Assembly (NCBI GenBank): GCA_020152595.1
Contig: JAIGNY010000456.1
Location: forward strand, 585,001-649,000
Length of the DNA stretch: 64,000 bases
From: Chiridota heheva
Lineage: Eukaryota > Echinodermata > Holothuroidea > Apodida > Chiridotidae
Reading direction: 5' to 3'
The notes beneath the pieces are model-generated. The model did no database searches, was not told the DNA's origin, and saw only the letters and a list, made by a program, of their open reading frames with translations. Position numbers and translations under genes: made by a program. The stretch's first letter is position 1. Each line of letters begins with the position of its first letter. This document shows, piece after piece, positions 7,533-64,000 of this stretch.

Positions 7533-7560
7533 TTAATTTTCTCATTTATTTTTTCAACAG
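7533..7560 (+). promoter_or_regulatory. Splice acceptor of the Eph exon
   Basis: A T/C-rich tract (about 7536-7557) ends in CAACAG immediately before the conserved Trp codon. It fixes the exon start and agrees with the family's exon boundary. Confidence 0.85.
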
Positions 7561-8221
7561 TGGCAGGAAACTGGTTCTAGTTTTAACAGACGCTATAGAA
7601 TATGCCAAGTCGCAAGCCCCGCCGCCAACTGGCTAAGACTACCGTATATGAGACGAGGTGATGCAAGTCGTATTCATGTGGAGATCCATTTTACAATGTC
7701 AGAGTGTACAGAAACACAAAATGCTCAGCTCTGTAAAGAAACTTTTGATCTGTATTTTTTCGAGTCGGATAGTGAACAAGCATCTGATACTTACCCTCCT
7801 TGGCAGGCACCCCCGTATAAAAAAGTACAAAGAATTGCCTCAGCTGGACGGTTCTCGGACCCAGGTGCGGATGCGACGGAGTACACTACAATAGCTCACG
7901 AACACTTCCCTGTGTTGACGGAGGGATTTTTTATAGCGTTTAAAGATGAAGGGGCCTGTTTAGCGATTGTGAAAGTTATTGTATTTAAAGAAGCGTGCCC
8001 GCAAGTGACGCAAAATTATGCTATTTTTAATAAAACGTTTGAAGGAAGAGAGTTGAAAGACCTCGTGGAAGTAACAGGAACGTGTGTGGATAATAGTATT
8101 CCGTTAGGAAATGCACTGCCGATATTTCGATGCCAGTTTGGAGGGACGTGGACGTTGGCGATGAATGAATGCGGATGCAAACAAGGGTACCAACCAACTT
8201 CAACGCAAGATGGCTGTGAAG
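7561..8221 (+). CDS. Eph: Eph receptor tyrosine kinase, ligand-binding-domain exon (internal exon, partial gene)
   Basis: Eph receptors are membrane tyrosine kinases that bind ephrins on neighbouring cells and steer cell sorting and axon guidance. This exon supplies the extracellular ephrin-binding jellyroll. Seen: a pyrimidine tract plus CAG acceptor just before 7561, an open frame of 220 codons plus one base, and a donor G|GTAGGTG at 8221/8222 (entry phase 0, exit phase 1). Residues in order: YRICQV near residue 12, NWLRLPYMRRGDASRIHVE (about 23-41), the CKETFDLYFFESD strand (about 57-69), TYPPWQ, PYKKV, EGFFIAFKDEGACLAIVKV (about 121-139) and CPQV. The C-terminal stretch (FRCQFGGTW, NECGCKQGYQP, DGCE) enters the cysteine-rich/sushi module. 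Known of the family: vertebrate Eph genes also encode this domain in one ~660-bp third exon beginning at a Trp. The signal-peptide exons, EGF-like region, FN3 repeats, TM and kinase exons are not found here. The internal ATG at 7648 is not a start. Odd: the usual IAADESF segment reads IASAGRF. Certain as to family; orthology to a particular Eph is not resolvable, although many invertebrates have a single Eph gene. Confidence 0.96.
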
Positions 8222-8229
8222 GTAGGTGT
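8220..8229 (+). promoter_or_regulatory. Splice donor of the Eph exon
   Basis: The sequence is AAG|GTAGGTG-like: the last exon base is the G at 8221, followed by GTAGGTG. Read-through in frame meets a stop codon about 40 bases later. The position, just after the GYQP..DGC segment, is where the family's ligand-binding exon usually ends in phase 1. Confidence 0.85.
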
Positions 8230-8289
8230 TTAAATAAAATACAATTTCAGAAAACTAATTAAAATTTTAGCAGCCTGGTATATATGCAT

Positions 8290-16507: not shown

Positions 16508-17079
16508 TTAAAGGATTAGTTCAGGGGTCAAGCATGGCCATCTTATATGAAAGAGGACTTCAATAGAAACAAAATGGTAAAGAAAGCATTGCAAAATCTT
16601 ATTCCGTTAAGGAGATATTAAAGTTTAAAGCTTGCTATTATTTCTGTAGAAATGACTAAAATCAGACTAGTTGTAATGTCACAGACTCAGATTTCTCAAA
16701 GTATGTATGTATAATAAAGAAAGTTTATTTAATTTTGTCACTATTAAAATTATTTTCCCTCAAACTTTCTTTAGGTAGTTTATTAAGAATACCCTTCCTA
16801 GATTCAGTTTTATTACTTTTTTGACATATCCCGAGGTCTTTAAGCCACAAAATCACAGAACAAAATATGATAGAATACATAGAGACTTTGAGAAATCTGA
16901 GGCTATGGCATCACAACTAGTCTGATTTCAGTCGTTTCTACACAAATAATACCAAACTTTAAACTTGAATATCTCCTTAACGGAATAAGATTTTTGAATG
17001 TTTTTTTCATCATTTTGTTTCTTTTGAATTCTTCTTTCATAGAAAATAAACATGCTTGACCACTGAACTAATCCTTTAA
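16508..17079. mobile_element. MITE family A, full-length copy (572 bp)
   Basis: Bounded by TTAAAGGATTAGTTCAG at 16508 and its inverse ..CTGAACTAATCCTTTAA ending at 17079. The first and last ~200 bases are mutually inverted (ATGACTAAAATCAGACTAGT pairs with ACTAGTCTGATTTCAGTC). There is no coding capacity, so it is non-autonomous. The TTAA at each end fits a TTAA target duplication. Confidence 0.93.
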
Positions 17080-24119: not shown

Positions 24120-24605
24120 TTGGCAACCTGCTGCAAGCTTGCAGGAAACGTGCAGCAAGTTTGCTGTAACTTGCAGCATGTTTGCTGCAAGCTTGCAGTA
24201 AACGTGCGGCAAATGTGCTGCAAGCTTGCAGCAAACGTGCTGCAAGCTTGTAGCAAACGTGCTGCAAGCTTGTAGCAAACGTGCTGCAAGCTTGTAGCAA
24301 ACGTGCTGCTAGCTAGTATTTGGAACAAATTAGCTTGCTCAAGCTAGCAAAAGCTATCTGCAAGCTTTTGCAAACTAGCAAAACTTTCTGGAAGCTTGTG
24401 CAAGCTATCAAATATTCTATGCTAGCTTGCGCTATTAGATGTTTTATGCTAACTTGCGCAAGCTAGTAAGCTGGTATTTGTTCCAAATACTAGTTTGCAT
24501 CATGCTTTCTGCAAGCTTGCAGCATGCTTGCAGCATACTTGCGCAAGCTAAAAATGTTAGCTTGTCGTATTAGCATGCTGCAAGCTAAAATTTCTGTAAG
24601 GGTGT
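24120..24605. repeat. AAGCTTG/GCTAGC-rich palindromic array
   Basis: Regular ~22-bp units (GCAAGCTTGTAGCAAACGTG then CT) cover about 24120-24310. Degenerate AGCTAGC and GCAAGCT words continue to about 24605. The core word AAGCTT is self-complementary, so each unit is a mini-palindrome. The Leu/Gln/Ala/Cys-type peptides on the minus strand are by-products. Confidence 0.9.
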
Positions 24606-30802: not shown

Positions 30803-32262
30803 CAGTACCATTGAGAGGGGGGAGCATACAATGGAAATTGCCCTGCTCCCAGCCATCGAGAAGGACCCAAGGAACGATCGAAGGGAGGCCATCCAAAAAG
30901 CTGAAAAGGTTTTCAAGTTGCTGTATATTGCACACAAATGTGATTATAGCAAAGCTACTGAACTTTTGAACAGTCCCTGACAAGGGGCACCCATTTTGGT
31001 ATTGGCCTGGGGTATGATCAGGGGCAGACAGGCCAACGATCGACTGATCCTGGATCGATGGGTCTGTATGGGCCGTTAAAACAGGCGCAGCATATAATGT
31101 GGGCCAGTCTTCACTTCCACCCCTGGTATGCTTCCAATCCTTAATATATATTTTGGTGTGTAATCTTTCTGAAGTAAAAAAAATGTGATAGAAACTATGC
31201 AACCATAGTGATCATAGTAATTTGCACTTTGTGTCTATTTATATACATACCTTTATATTATTATCATATATTTGATGATCTTGTAAGAAGTATAATACTT
31301 GGGAAAAGTTATATTAGGAATTTTTTTTGTGCAAGGTGTGTTATCTTGTTAATTTTATAATTGCATCTCAAACATATCGAAAAAGACGGGAAAGTACATG
31401 GCATGTGATAAAGAAAATTCACGAGTATAATTTACCAAATTTGAGCTATTTTTGAAGACTTTACTGGCTTGTTTTTTTCTGCAAAACATCTTCAATGCAT
31501 TTGAAGGATGGAATAAGATATTTCATAAAAGACAAACATCTTCATTTTGTCCTTGGTATTGCATAGGAAACTTGTACTTGAGAGGAAAGACTGTTATTTC
31601 TTGCTCTCAGAGGAGCGTAATGTTGGTAACTGAAGACATCTTTAGGGATTTCACCACATCTTGCTTGGGTATCGAATTGGAGGTACTGAAGCAGGTGAGG
31701 TAGACGTGACGAAAGACATATTGAAGAGGATGTAAGAAAACCACAAACTTTATATCTCAATAAATTTTCGAGGAAAATACACTCTCTTAAAATTATCAAA
31801 TTTTGCGGAGTGAGGTGTGGAAGTATATGTGTTTGTTTATTATGCATGTATATACATCATTTGTGCAAAGGAAATTTCCTGCGCCTTTATATATTCCTAC
31901 TTATTAAGAAGATACGTTGTCATGTCTCAAAATGAAAAGTGTGATGCTTAGATGTGTTAAAATTCTGCATGATAGATATTTTCCAAAGGTGTATATTGGA
32001 TTAATCTAATATCATATTAAATTAAAGGGGCATTTGGCATAACAGATGTATTGTGGGTTTAGTTAAAGGGGCACTTGAGTGAAAATTGAGGGCAGATTTT
32101 TTGAGTCTCAAAAATAACTCTCAAGTAAAATTAACAGCACAAAGATGTAACAATAATAAAAGTGAAAAAAAAATTATAGCATAAATGAGATTTTAATAGA
32201 AATAATGGACCTGTTTCTTCAGGGATTATAATTAATATTTCAGGAAGCACTGACCAACATCT
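30803..32262. other. Intron with two orphan TTAAAGGGG ends
   Basis: TTAAAGGGGCATTTGGC (about 32021) and TTAAAGGGGCACTTGAGTG (about 32063) look like left ends of further TTAA-type MITEs. I could not pair either with a right end. The rest is unique AT-rich sequence. Confidence 0.4.
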
Positions 32263-32948
32263 TTAAGGATTAATTCAGTGGTCAAGCATGATTGTCTGAA
32301 TTACTTCAGTTGTCAAGCATGATTGTCTGAATTAGTTCAGTGGTCAAGCATGATTGTCTGAATTACTTCAGTTGTCAAGCATGATTGTCTGAATTAGTTC
32401 AGTGGTCAAGCATGATTGTCTGATATGAAAGAGGATATGAAAAAGGACTTCAAGTAAAACAAAATGCTGAAGAAAGCATTCTAAAATCTTATTCCGTTAA
32501 GGATATATTTAAGTTTAAAGTTAGGTATCATTTGTGTAGAAATGACTGAAATCAGTTGTGATGTCATAACCTCAGATTTCTCAAAGTCTTTATTTATTCT
32601 ATCATAATTTGTCCTGCGATTTTGTGGTTGAAAAACTATGGGATATGTCAACAAAGTAGTAAAACTGAATCTAGGAAGGGTATTTATAATATACCACCTC
32701 AAAAAAGTTTGAGGAAAAATAATTTAAATAGTGAAAAAATTAGATAAACTTTCTAAAAAATACATAAAGATTTTGAGGAATCTAGAGGCTGTGACATCAT
32801 ACCTAGTCTGATTTCAGTCTTTTTTTCACATATGATACCAACTTTAAACTTGGATATCTTCTTAACGAAATAAGATTTTGCAATGCTTTCTTCACCATTT
32901 CTCTTTCATATAAGATGGGCATACTTGACCCCTGAACTAATCCTTTAA
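32263..32948. mobile_element. MITE family A, full copy with 31-bp TIR expansion (686 bp)
   Basis: The left end TTAAGGATTAATTCAGTGG is followed by about five 31-bp units of TTCAGTKGTCAAGCATGATT plus GTCTGAATTA (32271-32422), an amplification of the terminal module. Then the normal interior follows, and the right end ..CCCTGAACTAATCCTTTAA ends at 32948. Confidence 0.92.
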
Positions 32949-34584: not shown

Positions 34585-35353
34585 TAATTAAATGAAAAAC
34601 AAAATAGTGAAGAAACCATTCAAATAACTTATTCTGTTAAGGATATTTAAGTTTAAAGTATGGTATCATTTGTACAGAAACAACTGAAATCAGACTAGTT
34701 GTGATGTCATAGCCTCAGATTTCTCAAAGTCTTTATGTATTCTATCATATTTTTTCCTGCGATTTTGTGGCTTAAAAACTATAGGATATATCAAAATAGT
34801 AATAAAACTGAATCTAGGAAGGGTATTTATAATATACCACCTGGAGAAAGTTCGAGGGGAAAATAATTTAAATAGTGAAAAAATTAAACAAACTTTCTTT
34901 AAGATACATAAACAATTGTTAAGAATGTGAGGATGAAGATGTCAATTTTCTATAGTAGACTTACTACACCAGCCATTTATACAGAAATAAGACAGAGCTT
35001 TAAACTTTAATATCTCCTTAACGGAATAAGATTTTTTAATGTTTTCTTCACCATTTTGTTTCTTTTGAAGTCCACCTTCAAATAAGATACATTTTCTTGA
35101 CCCCTGAACTAATCCATTGAACTCAAATATCTCCTTAAGGGAATCAGATTTTTGAATGCTTTCTTCACCAATTTGTTTCTTTTGAAGTCCTCTTTCAAAT
35201 AAGATACACTTGCTTGACCCCTAAACTAATCTATTGAACTTGAATATCTCCTTAAGGGAATCAGATTTTTGAACGCTTTCTTCACCAATTTGTGTATTTT
35301 GAAGTCCTCTGTCATTCATTATAAAGGATGAACAGACCCCTGAACTAATCCTA
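34585..35353. mobile_element. MITE family A with eroded left end and triplicated right terminal module
   Basis: The left TIR is degraded, but the interior (ACTGAAATCAGACTAGTTGT, AAACTGAATCTAGGAAGGGT) is standard. The right terminal module appears three times, ending near 35116, 35235 and 35353 (~118-bp spacing). Each carries ATATCTCCTTAA, TTCACCA, AAGTCCTCT and CTTGACCCCTRAACTAATC. Confidence 0.88.
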
Positions 35354-39941: not shown

Positions 39942-41009
39942 ATAGAACGACTGAAATCAGACTAGTTATTGTGACATCACATCCTCACATCCCTAAAAGT
40001 CTTGTTTTTGATTGAAGTTTTTCTGAGATTTTCAAAACCATTGGGTAAAACAGAATCTAGTAAAGTATCTATAATATATCACATTAAACAATTTTTAGAA
40101 ATAAAATCAGTCACAAAAAAAAGTTTATTTTCATTAAATTGCTGTAGCAATTGTTGAGAAAGTGATTGTAAACATCTCTTTAACAAAATAATAATTTTAA
40201 AGACTTTTTAACCATTTTTGTTTCTTTCATAATTGTCTTCTTCCATATAATATGTTTATTTTAAACTTTGATGGATATCTCTTTAACAGAATAAGACATT
40301 GGAGTAGTTTGTCCACCATTTTGTTTCTTTTAATATCCTCTTACATGAAACTAGAATTATAGCACTCTGCAGAGCCTATACCTAGCCCCTGTTCATTCCC
40401 AACTGGAATACAATCTACCAAGTTATAACCCCAAACAATCTCTTTCCACTGTTGATCTGTATTGCCATTTACATTCTAAACACTTGAGGATCATCACTTG
40501 TGATCATTGTTTTCAGTTTTATTCAGGCTAAGCATTCATTGTTTGAGCTCTATTCAGCCAAGATTCACATTCCATTATTTTCCTTTCATACAAGAAACCA
40601 ATTGTTTTGATTCTGTTCGATACCAGAAACCACTTGATCTTATTTTTTAGAGTCCAGAAAATTGATTGTTTTGAATTCATTTCAGGGCATGAATTGTTTA
40701 AAACATTTCATTGGAATTCATTAAAATGTTTTAACTATGTAAGTCTTCACAGATCTTATCTTAAAACATCCCCATCCCTATATTTCTGCCCTTCCCCTGT
40801 TCCATTAAGTCCCAAATTTTAATCACTTCTTCTTGAAACAGTAAGAAAACCACACACCAAATTGAGTCAAAGTTCAATCATCAGTTATTGAGATATCTTG
40901 ATGACAGACAAACAAACAGACAGACAAACAGAGGCGAAAACATAACCTCTGTCCGACTTTGTTGGCGGAGATAGTAAACTTGCTTGACCCCTTAACTAAT
41001 CCTTCTTAA
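39942..41009. mobile_element. MITE family A, right part, interrupted by another repeat
   Basis: Family A interior begins at CGACTGAAATCAGACTAGTT (39946) and runs to CCTCTTACATGAAAC (about 40350). It resumes at AAACTTGCTTGACCCCTTAA (about 40977) and ends ..CTAATCCTTCTTAA (41009). The ~625-bp interruption is the dispersed repeat listed next. Confidence 0.8.
40351..40976 (+). repeat. Dispersed repeat family D, + copy
   Basis: Begins CTAGAATTATAGCACTCTGC and ends with GACAGACAAACAAACAGACA-type repeats and ATAACCTCTGTCCGACTTTG, then TTGGCGGAGATAGTA. From memory, that 'ACAGAC..AACCTC..TTGGCGGAG' tail is common in dispersed repeats of aquatic animals. An inverted diverged copy lies at 50345-50886. 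An open frame at 40607-40822 is not shared as a protein and is probably chance. Confidence 0.85.
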
Positions 41010-51973: not shown

Positions 51974-52568
51974 TTAAAGGATTAGTTCAGGTGTCAAGCA
52001 AGTCCATGTTATATGAAAGAGGACTTCAATAGAAACAAAATGGTGAAGAAACCATTAAGATTAGAAAAGCATTCAAATAGCTTATTCCGTTAAGGGGATA
52101 TTTAAGTTTGGTAGCTAGGCCTATCATTTGTGTAGAAATGACTGAAATCAGACTAGTTGTGATGTCATAGCCTCAGGTTCCTCAAAATCTTCATGTATTC
52201 TATCATATTTTGTCCTTTTATTTTATAGCCTAAAAACCATTGGATGTCAGGAAAGTCACAAAACTGCATCTTGTAAGGATGATTAAAATTTACGACCTGA
52301 AGAAAGTTCGAGGGAAAATAATTGGAATAGGAAAAAAAGTTAAATATATTTTCTTTAACAATTGTTAAGAATGTGAGGATAAGCTCGCCAATCTTCAATA
52401 ATAGACTTACTACACCAGTCTTTTGTACAAAGTTGAGAAAGAGATTTAAACTTGAATATCTTCTTAACGGAATAAGAATTTTGAATGCTGTCTGCATCAT
52501 TTTGTTTCTTTTAAAATCTTCTTTTCATTATAAGATGGACTTCGTTGACCATTGAACTAATCCTTTAA
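51974..52568. mobile_element. MITE family A, full copy (595 bp)
   Basis: Left TTAAAGGATTAGTTCAGGTG, right ..CATTGAACTAATCCTTTAA ending at 52568. Inverted arms of over 200 bp. A further AAAGGATTAGA immediately upstream (51964) suggests a partial terminal-module duplication. Confidence 0.93.
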
Positions 52569-58932: not shown

Positions 58933-60208
58933 TTAAAAGATTAGTTCAGTGGTCAAGCATGGCCATCTTATATGAAAGAGGACTTCAAAACAAATGAAAT
59001 AGTGAAGAAAGCATTCAAAAATCTTATTCTGTTAAAGGATTAGTTCAGGGGTCAAGCATGGCCATTCTATATGAAAGAGGATTCCAAAAGAAACAAAATG
59101 GTGAGGAAAGCATTCGTAAATCTTATTTCATTAAAGGATTAGTTCAGGGGTCAAGCATGGCCATTCTATATGAAAAAGGACTTCAAAAAAACAAAATGGT
59201 GCAGAAAGCATTCGTAAATCTTTTTCCGTTAAAGGATTACTTCAGTGGTCAAGTATGTCCATCTTATATGAAAGAGGACTTATAAAAAATGAAAAATGGT
59301 GAAGAAAGCATTTAAAAATCTTATTCCGTTAAGGAGATATTCAAAGTTTAATGCCCTGTCTTATCTGTAGAAATGACTGCTGTAGTAAGTCTACTGTCTA
59401 CTATGGAAAGTTGGTGTCTTCATCCTTACATTATTAACTATTTTTAATGTATTTTAAAGAAAGTTTATTTAATTTTTGTATTATTTAAATTATAATTCCT
59501 TGAACTTTCTTCAGGTGGTTTATTATAAATACCCTTACTAGATTCATTTTTACTTCTTTTTTGACATATCCCATGGTTTTTAAGCCACAGTATTGCCTGA
59601 CAAAATATGATAGAATACATAAAGACTAGGAATCTGAGGCAATGACATCACAACTAGTTTGATTCGATTCATTTCTACACTAATGATACTAAACTTTAAA
59701 CTTAGATATCTCCTTAGCGGAATAAGATTTGTGAATGCTTTCTCACCATTTTGTTTCTTTTGAAGTCCTCTTTTATATAAGATGGACTTGCTTGACCCCT
59801 GAACTAATCCTCTAACAGAATAAGATTTTAGAATGCTTTCTTCACCATTTTGTTTCTTTTGATGTCCTCTTTTATACAAGATGGACATGCTTGACCCCTG
59901 AACTAATCCTTTACGAAATAAGATTTAGAATGCTATCTTCACCATTTTGTTTCTTTTAAAGTCCTCTTTCATATAAGATGGACTTGCTTGACCCCTGAAC
60001 TAATCCTTTAACGGAATAAGATTTTAGAGTGCTTTCTTCACCATTTTGTTTCTTTTGATGTCCTCTTTCATACAAGATGGACTTGCTTGACCCCTGAACT
60101 AATCCTTTAACGGAATAAGATTTTTGAATGCTTTTTCACCATTTTGTTTCTTTTAAAGTCCTCTTACATATAAGATGGACATGCTTGACCACTTAACCAA
60201 TCCTTTAA
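58933..60208. mobile_element. MITE family A, giant copy with terminal-module ladders (1276 bp)
   Basis: The left side has four successive terminal modules, starting at 58933, 59032, 59131 and 59229 (98-99 bp apart). Each holds TTAAAGGATTASTTCAG, GGTCAAGCATGGCC-type, TATATGAAAGAGGA and AACAAAATGGTG. The right side has five modules in inverse orientation, ending near 59815, 59914, 60011, 60110 and 60208. The centre (59340-59700) is a normal family A interior. The TTAA termini are intact. Reading frames here (59058-59285, 59580-59888) are repeat by-products. Confidence 0.95.
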
Positions 60209-61227: not shown

Positions 61228-62183
61228 GATCTGTGGAACGGCAATTTTATGCAAGATGTAAATATCATGTATGGAATTACATTACTAAATATCAAAGTGC
61301 ATTATGACCGCAGAATCAACATTTCGTCCCCGAAAAGTCACAATTGCAAATCACTGCATTAAAATGCAATCACCTCCGTACAAATGCCGTTGAGTGCCTA
61401 GCTGTCGTCTTCTCCTGACCTCGTCCTCTAGTTTTATGTCTCCGAGAATTTTTTTCTCTTGAAACGTAAATGAAGTGAATTATTTTGCATCAAAGTAAAG
61501 GCTTTCAAGCCATTGAATATGAGGCCCGCTATGTAAAAATATCTTTTGATACAAGTGTTATACTTGAACTGTGTGCGTTCCTCTTGTAGTGGGTATAGCA
61601 TCTTGTCATCAGTAGAGGATTAGTGTGGTTAATATTACATTAGGATGTGAGAGGAAGAGAAGATACTGACTGGAGATATGGGTTCGTTTGGTTGTTGTTT
61701 TACTGTCTTGTGTAAAACACTGTTAGAATGATGGTGGGTAGATTTCAATGGACAATGCTGAGACTCTGGGCGTCTTTGATTTTTTGTGGTGGTGGTGGTG
61801 GTTTTATATTGGGCTTTTTATGGGGTGACCTTCTTAGCCTGTAATCTTGTTATGTTATTGGGTAGATTTTACCAATATTGTGTAAATGCGGGGTAAAATG
61901 TACCCTGAAAGTTTAGTTAATTGTGGTGCAACAATAATGCAGGAAGGTTGGGTTAATCCCAGGGGTCCAAGCAATTTTTTTTTGGGGGGGCCCTGTGCAA
62001 CAACACTGCGATATGTTACCCCAAAAATGGTTAATTTTTACCCCAAAATTGGTTAAAATTTATCTCTAATTTAGGTGATGTAGTACCCGCAAATTAGGTG
62101 ATGTACTGCCCCCAACTGGGTAAATTGTATGCAATATTTGGGAAGATTTGACCCATTTGGTAAGTTTTCTTGCTACCTAAAAT
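61228..62183. other. Intron with degenerate GGTTAA/ACCCC words
   Basis: A TGG microsatellite at about 61787-61802. From about 61950, repeated ACCCCAAAAWTGGTTAATTT and ATTAGGTGATGTA words lead into the 17-bp array and may be its degenerate edge. Confidence 0.45.
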
Positions 62184-62642
62184 TGTAAAATACACCCAGT
62201 TGTAAAGTACACCCAGTTGTAAAATACACCCAGTTGTATAATACACCCAGTTGTAAAATACACCCAGTTGTAAAATGCACCCAGTTGTAAAATGCACCCA
62301 GTTGTAAAATGCACCCAGTTGTTAAATACACCCAGTTGTAAAATACACCCAGTTGTAAAATACACTTAGTTGTAAAATACACCCAGTTGTAAAATACACC
62401 CAGTTATAAAATACACTCAGTTGTATAATACACCCAGTTGTAAAATACACCCAGTTGTAAAATACACCCAGTTGTAAAATACACCCAGTTGTAAAATACA
62501 CCCAGTTGTAAAATACACCCAGTTGTAAAATACACCCAGTTGTAAAATACACCCAGTTGTAAAATACACCCAGTTGTAAAATACACCCAGTTGTAAAATA
62601 CACCCAGTTGTAAAATACACCCAGTTGTAAAATACACCCAGT
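62184..62642. repeat. 17-bp minisatellite, 27 units
   Basis: The unit is TTGTAAAATACACCCAG. 459 bases = exactly 27 x 17. Variants are confined mostly to the left half (AAAGTAC, AAATGCAC, TATAATAC, ACTTAG); the right 13 units are essentially identical. Since 17 is not a multiple of 3 and the minus strand has no stop in any phase, all three minus frames stay open with a 17-residue period (LQLGVFYNWVYFTTGCI type). Not evidence of coding. Confidence 0.97.
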
Positions 62643-64000
62643 TTGTGCACAAAGTCTTACTATTGTACCTTTTGTTGTCACATGATTGTTTTAGAGTGAA
62701 GAAGAAGGGGTAATTGACTGTCGACATGGGATTTAATAGGGCAATTAGAAAAGGTAAACAAACAAAAAACTACAAAGTTTGAGACATGACAGGGGTAAAG
62801 TTTAGGAGGGGAGTGTTCATGATTTGAAATTATTGGGATCCTGGCCCTCATAAGCCTCCTTTGTTCAGTGCAGTTGTATCTTGAAGGGGTAGAGGGGTCA
62901 TTTTGAAAGAAAAGGAAAATTTGATCATTTTTGGGGGGTGATTGGAAGCAAAATTGCTGACATGTTTTCTTTCTTTTGCTCAAGCGTGGGAAGATTGGAA
63001 AGAAATATATGATGATCTGAAAAATACTAAATCATAATTCAATGTTGAATAACAACTTTTTGCTCTGGGTGTACCCATTTATGTCAAATGCAAAAGTTGA
63101 AGTGGGATTTAAATTTGGTTATTGTGCGATGTTTTTAAAATAATTGATCGAAAACAGCCTCTCAGGTACTACTGAACTTAAACTGGTTCTGAGCCTCTTT
63201 AAAAATTGAATCGAGACAAAACAGCAAATCTCTTGTTTCTGAGAAATAAAAAGCGGTTTACTTCCGTAAAAACCCTGAAGAAAGGGAAGAGAAACGTCTT
63301 GGAATTCAAGCCAAAGCATCGGTGGCCCCTCCTAACGTCGTTTACTGCTGAATTTAAGTGCATTTCTCATGAACCAATCTGTTATTCTGAATTCGTTTTC
63401 GACATGAGTGGAAACTTTGTGCATACCAAGTAGTAACACTAGTTGCTTTTCAATCCCACAGTGCATTTGAACCCAAAAGCGAACATTTCCTCCTGATTTT
63501 AAAGATAATTGGATATTCTCGTAAGGTAGTGATAAAGACGTTACAGGAGAGATTTGGTTGAGCATCTTGACATTTTCCTTTCATTCCTGTTTTTCAAATG
63601 AGAACTTTTTGTGTTTTTTTGTTTTCGGTCGGAAACACTTGCTTATTCTTGAGTGTAGTGTGTGCATAAATGTTCGAATTTGAATGTTAAATGATGAATG
63701 TTTTTTAAATTTCAAGTAAAAATATTCTGAGGAACATTGTTGTATGGGGAAGAAATATGCTGATTTGTTCTAATATGTGTTAGTGCAAGTTTTACTCAGG
63801 AATGTGCATGGATAAAGCTGTGCCCTTGTATTGATTAGAAATATATTAATTTAAAGGAGTGCTCTCTCAGTACTTATCAACAATAAATACAGTGCACCAA
63901 GCAAATCCCTATAGGATGTTCATAAAACTGTTTAAATAAAATTATTTGTCAACGTTAATTTAGTCCCTTTTAAATGTTTAACAAATCTTTTAGTCAATAT
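62643..64000. other. Eph intron to the window edge
   Basis: AT-rich unique sequence. TTAAAGGAGTGCTCTCTCAG at about 63853 looks like one more TTAA-type MITE left end whose partner would lie outside the window. Open frames at 63206-63433 and 63332-63565 are not recognisable. Confidence 0.4.

Follow-up and report, generated by a model that had tools for sequence, protein, structure and literature searches.

TTAA-stepped ladders of terminal modules in a MITE family of the holothurian Chiridota heheva

In a dense family of short TTAA-targeting elements of Chiridota heheva, tandem copies of the element's own end are stacked in steps set by TTAA sites within the terminal inverted repeat (TIR), complete elements are found nested in other copies of the family, TTAA flanks the stacked ends, and modules of long ladders resemble each other as expected from local growth. 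On balance, we favour the reading that TTAA-targeted self-insertion seeds a rung and that unequal exchange then lengthens the ladder.

The window, that is, the whole 64,000-nucleotide stretch of contig JAIGNY010000456.1 that was analysed, contains a laddered element, here called K, with the following parts.

58933..60208, no strand: K, the whole laddered MITE, 1276 bp, TTAA at both ends (TRF, BLAST)
58933..58936, + strand: left TTAA, target site and start of module L1 (flank cagcgacaacac-TTAA)
58933..59031, + strand: module L1, outermost left, GTGGTC type
59032..59130, + strand: module L2, GGGGTC type, nearest to L3 (BLAST, distances, tree)
59131..59229, + strand: module L3, GGGGTC type (BLAST, distances, tree)
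59230..59328, + strand: module L4, innermost left, GTGGTC type, running on into the inner part of the TIR and the core
59329..59713, + strand: inner TIR parts and core of K, found in other copies too (73–82% in the six longest window matches)
59714..59811, − strand: module R1, innermost right
59812..59909, − strand: module R2, 96% identical to R4 (BLAST, tree)
59910..60008, − strand: module R3
60009..60107, − strand: module R4
60108..60208, − strand: module R5, outermost right, GTGGTC type, ending in TTAA 60205–60208

TRF reports 4.0 copies of period 99 on the left (58933–59332) and 5.0 copies of the same period on the right (59714–60208). The two ladders are mutually inverted and enclose a centre of 385 bp. 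The four left and five right modules described in the first-pass annotation are confirmed by both TRF and BLAST. With each module as query against the window, BLAST matched the other eight (E 1e-20 to 1e-34), and the similarity among modules is far greater than expected by chance. Divergence between them is 4–20%; GTGGTC is common to L1, L4 and R5, and GGGGTC is found in L2, L3 and R1–R4. Both outermost ends are of the TTAA type, as had been noted (cagcgacaacac-TTAA ... TTAA-gtcgtttaaaat). The module size of about 99 bp given earlier also stands (97–99 bp), with the refinement that each step is bounded by the terminal TTAA and by a TTAA within the normal TIR.

The family to which K belongs has a unit of about 570 bp and is dense in the 1.1-Gb genome. 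BLAST places family sequence at about a dozen positions in the window, and a first look at the genome gave 2029 candidates. Plain single-module copies in the window measure about 570–606 bp, with cores 73–77% identical to that of K, and include the following.

16508..17079, no strand: single-module reference copy, 572 bp, TTAA/TTAA
41838..42443, no strand: single-module copy
51974..52568, no strand: single-module copy, TTAA/TTAA

Seventeen copies, one of them the innermost part of K, were combined into a 574-bp family consensus. Its termini are TTAA-AGGATTAG...CTAATCCT-TTAA, and TTAA occurs at positions 1, 100, 118, 209, 224, 240, 335, 454, 460, 472 and 571. Site 112 is a TTAA in variant copies only, which carry AGATATTAAAG or AGATATTTAAG in place of AGATATTCAAG.

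The earlier assignment of K as a MITE agrees with these data: the family is short, dispersed, present in many copies and bounded by TIRs, and among the 17 stop-to-stop open reading frames of at least 140 amino acids in the window, on which the absence of coding capacity was judged, none overlaps 58933–60208. The target-site duplication is TTAA, 4 bp long, as seen at the ends of K, at a TCAA empty site and at the nested locus L035 (see below), and the consensus termini have the form 5′-RR...YY-3′. Kolobok elements are described in excerpts of two reports as TTAA-targeting with RR...YY termini (PMC9587614, PMC6004289), and piggyBac elements in an excerpt of a third as having CC[C/T]T ends (PMC2872659). 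The TTAA duplication would suit piggyBac as well, but the terminus AGGATTAG is not CC[C/T]T and rules out membership of that group. To judge from its termini, TTAA-AG...CT-TTAA, K appears to be a non-autonomous TTAA-targeting transposon that fits Kolobok and not piggyBac. A search of a plasmid collection gave no match, as expected for an animal repeat.

Several other features of the window were recorded. One open frame at 7537–8262 encodes ephrin receptor ligand-binding (PF01404, E 3e-37) and cysteine-rich (PF25599) domains. Receptors of this type are animal proteins, and the match points to an animal genome. Highly regular arrays lie at 811–1486 (27-bp unit, 25 copies, 98%), stopping 33 bp before the family copy at 1519, and at 62183–62643 (17-bp unit, 27 copies, 95%). 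A short-unit array at 24125–24549, with periods of 11, 22 and 33, is based on GCTTGCAGCA-like, partly self-complementary sequence.

Laddering was surveyed in 262,020 bp of DNA, made up of the window and 20 stretches of 9.9 kb picked among 75 listed matches by their similarity to module L2. Some of these stretches (C3260, C1982, C1941 and C3439) had several L2 matches, which enriches the survey for laddered copies; the window is its sole unselected sample. Extra end copies are present in 9 of the 23 elements for which both ends were found. Two of these nine are laddered on both sides and seven on one side only, and one of the nine, L009, has a 43-bp step that is not TTAA-bounded. Laddering is a habit of the family, mostly one-sided in this sample, and the symmetry emphasized in the first-pass annotation holds for K (four and five modules) but is no family rule. 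That other laddered copies should exist, as the annotation anticipated, is evident from 22 ladders in the 262 kb and thousands of junctions genome-wide.

The window itself holds a second ladder, which represents a third step class in the sample.

35009..35352, − strand: second family ladder, three modules stepped by 117 bp at site TTAA118, which is mutated to TCAA in this copy

The four loci that came first among the ladder-pattern matches listed (L029–L032) all have at least three stacked modules; seven of their ten printed junctions are TTAA and three are a one-base variant or shift. The ladder of L029 combines step classes.

Two unusual arrangements were also seen. An otherwise ordinary copy at L024:2388–5937 bears about 30 modules in a ladder on one side (33 profile hits, with three modules split in two). 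This array at the end of a transposon resembles a satellite, and the mean distance between its modules is lowest at lag 9 and next lowest at lag 4. At L021:5217, a laddered element adjoins an inverted family member; the junction is a TTAA that lies about 53 bp into the TIR and is present in some copies only.

To quantify the steps, we scored 165 ends from 193 TIR hits in the 262,020 bp, after excluding 28 hits whose start lies past model position 6 or whose flank is shorter than 60 bases. Element-internal sequence lies directly outside 97 of the 165 ends, and a BLAST version of the analysis likewise gave 97. The junction is at TTAA100 (or its mirror, 472) in 73 of these, at 112/460 in 16 and at TTAA118 in six; the remaining two are an end-to-end junction and a junction at a TTAA near position 54. 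None of the 97 element-in-element ends in this sample is at a core TTAA. TTAA stands exactly at the boundary in 122 of the 165 scored ends and in 42 of the 68 without element-internal flank.

Adjacent modules give the same picture. In 95 of 105 adjacent same-strand pairs, which are not independent since one ladder contributes many, the inner module begins at the element terminus (model position 5 or lower), and the outer module stops at TTAA100 (73 pairs), near 112–116 (14), at 118–121 (7) or elsewhere (1). Counted by ladder, 19 of 22 have at least one step from terminus to TTAA, or 18 of 21 if L016, which contains a segmental duplicate, is counted once. The three exceptions are L009 (43 bp), L023:8505 (site 112, mutated, with the start scored at 6) and the degraded ladder at 40168. 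The steps thus fall into three classes of about 99, 110 and 117 bp. A single slippage event, which the first-pass annotation had thought insufficient, is ruled out by the three step classes, the two sides and the many loci.

Alternatively, ladders might be started without a transposase, by slippage during replication or by template switching through microhomology at TTAA(A)G, and then grow by unequal exchange; the outer end and the internal sites do share TTAA to TTAAAG. Moreover, not every repeat in the family is bounded by TTAA, as the following array illustrates.

32269..32423, + strand: exception, 31-bp ladder of five copies, not TTAA-bounded, in the left TIR of the copy at 32262–32948 (TRF)

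Since this array, which also shows a 62-bp double period, is not TTAA-bounded, plain tandem duplication also occurs in the K family. Further examples are the 43-bp repeat in L009 and a 23-bp repeat at L019:7898–7948. The adjacency method would miss such short steps; a TRF pass over the same DNA (arrays mostly inside element hits, score at least 50, period at least 12) brought in the 23-bp array and, within L024, a variant unit of 145 bp. These 31-, 43- and 23-bp repeats show that plain tandem duplication takes place here as well. Against slippage stands the choice of partner. In a null model, tandem duplications can draw on whatever microhomology an individual TIR offers, with a minimum length of 4, 5, 6 or 7 bp, and the terminus is then one of the partners in 6.9, 11.6, 14.9 and 2.3% of cases, respectively; its observed use, in the 95 of 105 pairs and 19 of 22 ladders given above, is well beyond this range of 2–15%.

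Genome-wide counts bear on the same question. We searched with patterns of 26 bases at up to three mismatches, counting junctions and not loci, and used reversed patterns as controls. Ladder junctions number 3438 at TTAA100, 1836 at TTAA112 and 522 at TTAA118 (59 of them exact), with no match to any of the three reversed controls. Core TTAA209, the single core site compared, carries the same TTAAAG as TTAA118 but gives only 81 junctions (control 1), and with two exact matches, three at one mismatch, nine at two and 67 at three, this count is largely background. Locally, 75 intact copies of site 100 are available, 33 of site 118 and 17 of site 209 (22–24-base strings, up to three mismatches). 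Per site, TTAA118 yields about three times as many junctions as TTAA209, and the margin widens with background removed. The TTAAAG common to both sites does not predict this difference, and we consider slippage or template switching an improbable origin of the ladders. Falsely expanded or collapsed repeats in the assembly are scarcely credible as an explanation: the modules of K differ by 4–20%, both ends of K have TTAA, and junctions recur by the thousand at sites 100 and 112 and by the hundred at 118 against zero in the reversed controls.

If a rung is seeded by self-insertion, a family element would enter another copy, or a sister copy, at a TTAA whose distance into that copy's TIR is 100, 112 or 118 bp, and the outer end segment of the host would thereby be joined at TTAA to a complete element. 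The resulting M1-M2-core-M2′, or its mirror image, would be a ready laddered element with TTAA at each end. We infer that a transposase performs the insertion and that such a composite is then freed from the nest, either by moving with outer ends of mixed origin or through a collapse between the cores. Adjacent modules would subsequently allow unequal exchange, in single and multi-module units, to lengthen and homogenise the ladder.

Nested insertions of the kind envisaged are present in the genome. We opened six of the 12 loci with exact nested-type junctions (L033–L038). L035 has the order M1-core-inner-(complete element)-M1′, with junctions AATATCTCC-TTAA-element-TTAA-CGGAATAAG, and is a clean insertion with a duplicated TTAA. 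L034 is arranged as M1(partial)-(complete element)-inner-core-M1′ and is not a clean insertion, its left junction having eight extra bases (TTAAGCAG) ahead of the TTAA. In both loci, long host sequence lies on either side of a full insert, and the segment from the outer end of the host to the far end of the insert already constitutes a laddered element. L036 has clean TTAA junctions, with a host module on the left and a short stretch of host on the right. In L033 the insert is truncated and has the host on one side; in L037 and L038 the host is seen on the right only. In L038 (E2-inner1-core1-M1′), the element is complete, M1 was not found and the left end is CTAA; this is the structure expected at a new site if the other composite moved by its mixed ends, and deletion of M1 is equally possible. 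The element with a 3+3 ladder at L014:4932–5940 has a paralogous empty site in L022 that aligns without a gap over a single TCAA, in support of the view that a laddered copy duplicated a TTAA target of 4 bp.

Nested-type right-hand junctions at TTAA100 (element end followed by GGAGATATT) number 498 genome-wide (12 exact; control 1), a count that includes short tandem arrays and, at three mismatches, likely chance matches. Two such arrays were noted, at C2447:1419536–1419796, with a nested-type junction every 47 bp or multiples thereof, and at C3070:1439927–1440513, with spacings of about 40 bp or multiples of it. At site 100, ladder junctions outnumber the nested ones about sevenfold before background is considered (3438 versus 498), and by a wider margin among exact matches (at least 100 versus 12). 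Simple nested copies are therefore not the usual end state, and amplification as units or a more direct route is needed. The excess could reflect composites that move as units, fast collapse of nests or rung addition by hybrid ends.

The last of these possibilities is an explanation in its own right. The hybrid-element insertion model derives from work on the P element. Applied here, the left end of one sister and the right end of the other would be cut together in an aberrant transposition, and the joint ends would enter a TTAA in the TIR, adding a module directly without a nested intermediate. Such a route accounts for the numerical dominance of ladder junctions, and also for the use of sites within about 120 bp of the end while core sites go unused in the sample. 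Nested intermediates do exist, however, and we regard hybrid ends as an unlikely main source of rungs, if a better candidate than slippage.

Seeding by self-insertion, the reading we favour, has difficulties of its own. The L034 junction is unclean, sites 112 and 118 also provide TTAAAG microhomology, and duplications not bounded by TTAA (31, 43 and 23 bp) occur. Untargeted nesting, furthermore, does not predict the absence of core insertions among the 97 ends; possible reasons are that insertion favours sites close to bound ends or that composites formed in the core move poorly.

Relationships among modules bear on how ladders grow. For 66 of 115 modules, the nearest relative lies in the same ladder (mean 9.1 and maximum 19 in 500 shuffles), and this holds for 60 of 73 modules in ladders of at least five but for 6 of 42 in shorter ones. 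In short ladders, distances within the ladder and to outside modules are alike and the divergence is star-like. Adjacent pairs differ by 0.124 at the outer edge, 0.110 at the inner edge and 0.085 in the middle, compared with 0.136 between loci; the greater divergence of edge pairs is the usual signature of unequal exchange and suggests that this process operates here. Similarity at lag 2 is found in both L018 ladders and in the right ladder of K, which leans to a two-module period: TRF also reports 196 bp, and a 171-nt stretch recurs at 96% identity 196 bp on. Over seven subfamily columns, adjacent modules agree at 0.67 in short ladders, 0.77 in long ladders and 0.53 between loci. Since the value for short ladders exceeds chance (none of 2000 permutations as high), some rungs there are plain duplications, and the module data make it likely that both imported and locally copied rungs occur.

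In K, R2 and R4 are the closest pair (4% difference), and R1 is equidistant (6% each) from R2, R3 and R4. The nine-module tree proposed in the first-pass annotation as a way of separating joint copying from local expansion gave same-side pairs, L2+L3 (UFBoot/SH-aLRT 89/92) and R2+R4 (85/91), which recur in a 21-row tree (94/92 and 90/92). A weak fork unites R1 and R3 with L2+L3 (84/82 including an outside row, 48/77 in the nine-row tree). The module trees contain no left-right pair, no side clade and no fork at the tool's star. They lean towards local tandem growth on each side. Joint copying of left and right within a palindrome is unsupported, there being no left-right pair and seven of nine laddered elements being one-sided. 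Unequal exchange probably does lengthen ladders, but it leaves the start of a ladder unexplained. The left ladder of K and the ladder of L010 differ by 10.8% in register and by 12.4% at the next offset, a weak hint of movement as a unit; in this weakly registered comparison, the two loci are not shown to share one ladder.

A broader proposal can be offered tentatively, as a possibility that we rate well below the seeding of rungs by self-insertion. The transposition complex may prefer a TTAA in a TIR of its own kind to one in the core, in which case foldback-type end ladders would be a built-in product of transposition. The many potential ends per element, which the annotation had foreseen and the module ladders bear out, may raise mobility, and very long ladders such as the approximately 30 modules of L024 would be satellite DNA born from a transposon end.

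Among titles and abstract openings of open-licence papers, we found no description of TTAA-stepped end ladders, and the closest parallels that came up for composites among TTAA transposons are KolobokP (PMC9587614) and CMITE-IN (PMC2872659); what follows is limited to excerpts of the reports cited. KolobokP resembles the K family in its Kolobok-type TTAA target, its RR/YY ends and its composite-like architecture; it is rich in bivalves, and its multimers are ascribed to unequal crossover. Its repeats, however, are direct units of 450–660 bp that have their own ends and flank a coding region (PMC9587614), whereas the unit in K is a 99–117-bp piece of one end, inverted between the sides and with steps set by TTAA. 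The T2-MITEs and Kolobok MITEs of Xenopus share the TTAA target, a terminal AGG and the status of predominant MITE family, with a terminal motif AGGRR compared with AGGAT in the K family; the amplified part in T2/Xmix is internal (Xstir, in Xmix), whereas the K family amplifies its end (PMC6004289). The coral CMITE and CMITE-IN are likewise TTAA MITEs with tandem arrays, and CMITE-IN is a new mobile element formed by a MITE inserting into the TTAA of another element. Unlike the K family, CMITE has piggyBac-type CC[C/T]T ends, and its arrays consist of whole elements and are ascribed to slippage; end ladders are not described in the excerpt (PMC2872659).

As a matter of structure, with no claim about descent, inverted ends made of variable-number tandem repeats also place the K family beside foldback elements, and the layout of K works like one, with TTAA as its target. 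Galileo (PMC3573991) and Tetris (PMC4079207) similarly have long inverted ends with variable numbers of tandem repeats, which in Galileo differ between sides and are discussed as extra transposase binding sites (PMC3573991) and in Tetris have seeded satellite DNA (PMC4079207). Tetris is a foldback element placed near Mutator by its authors, with a target-site duplication of 8–10 bp (PMC4079207), and Galileo belongs to the P superfamily (PMC3573991); the 4-bp TTAA of the K family sets it apart from a Tetris-type duplication. Galileo repeats lie mostly inside the TIR and do not start from the terminus (PMC3573991), and a target-site rule for the step is absent from the excerpted descriptions of both elements (PMC3573991, PMC4079207). 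As far as these excerpts go, the literature on foldback-type ends and transposon-born satellites covers the growth of tandem ends and gives no rule for the first repeat. In the K family, the step is tied to the element's own target site, in three alternative positions and with nested insertions still visible, and the question of origin thus becomes testable.
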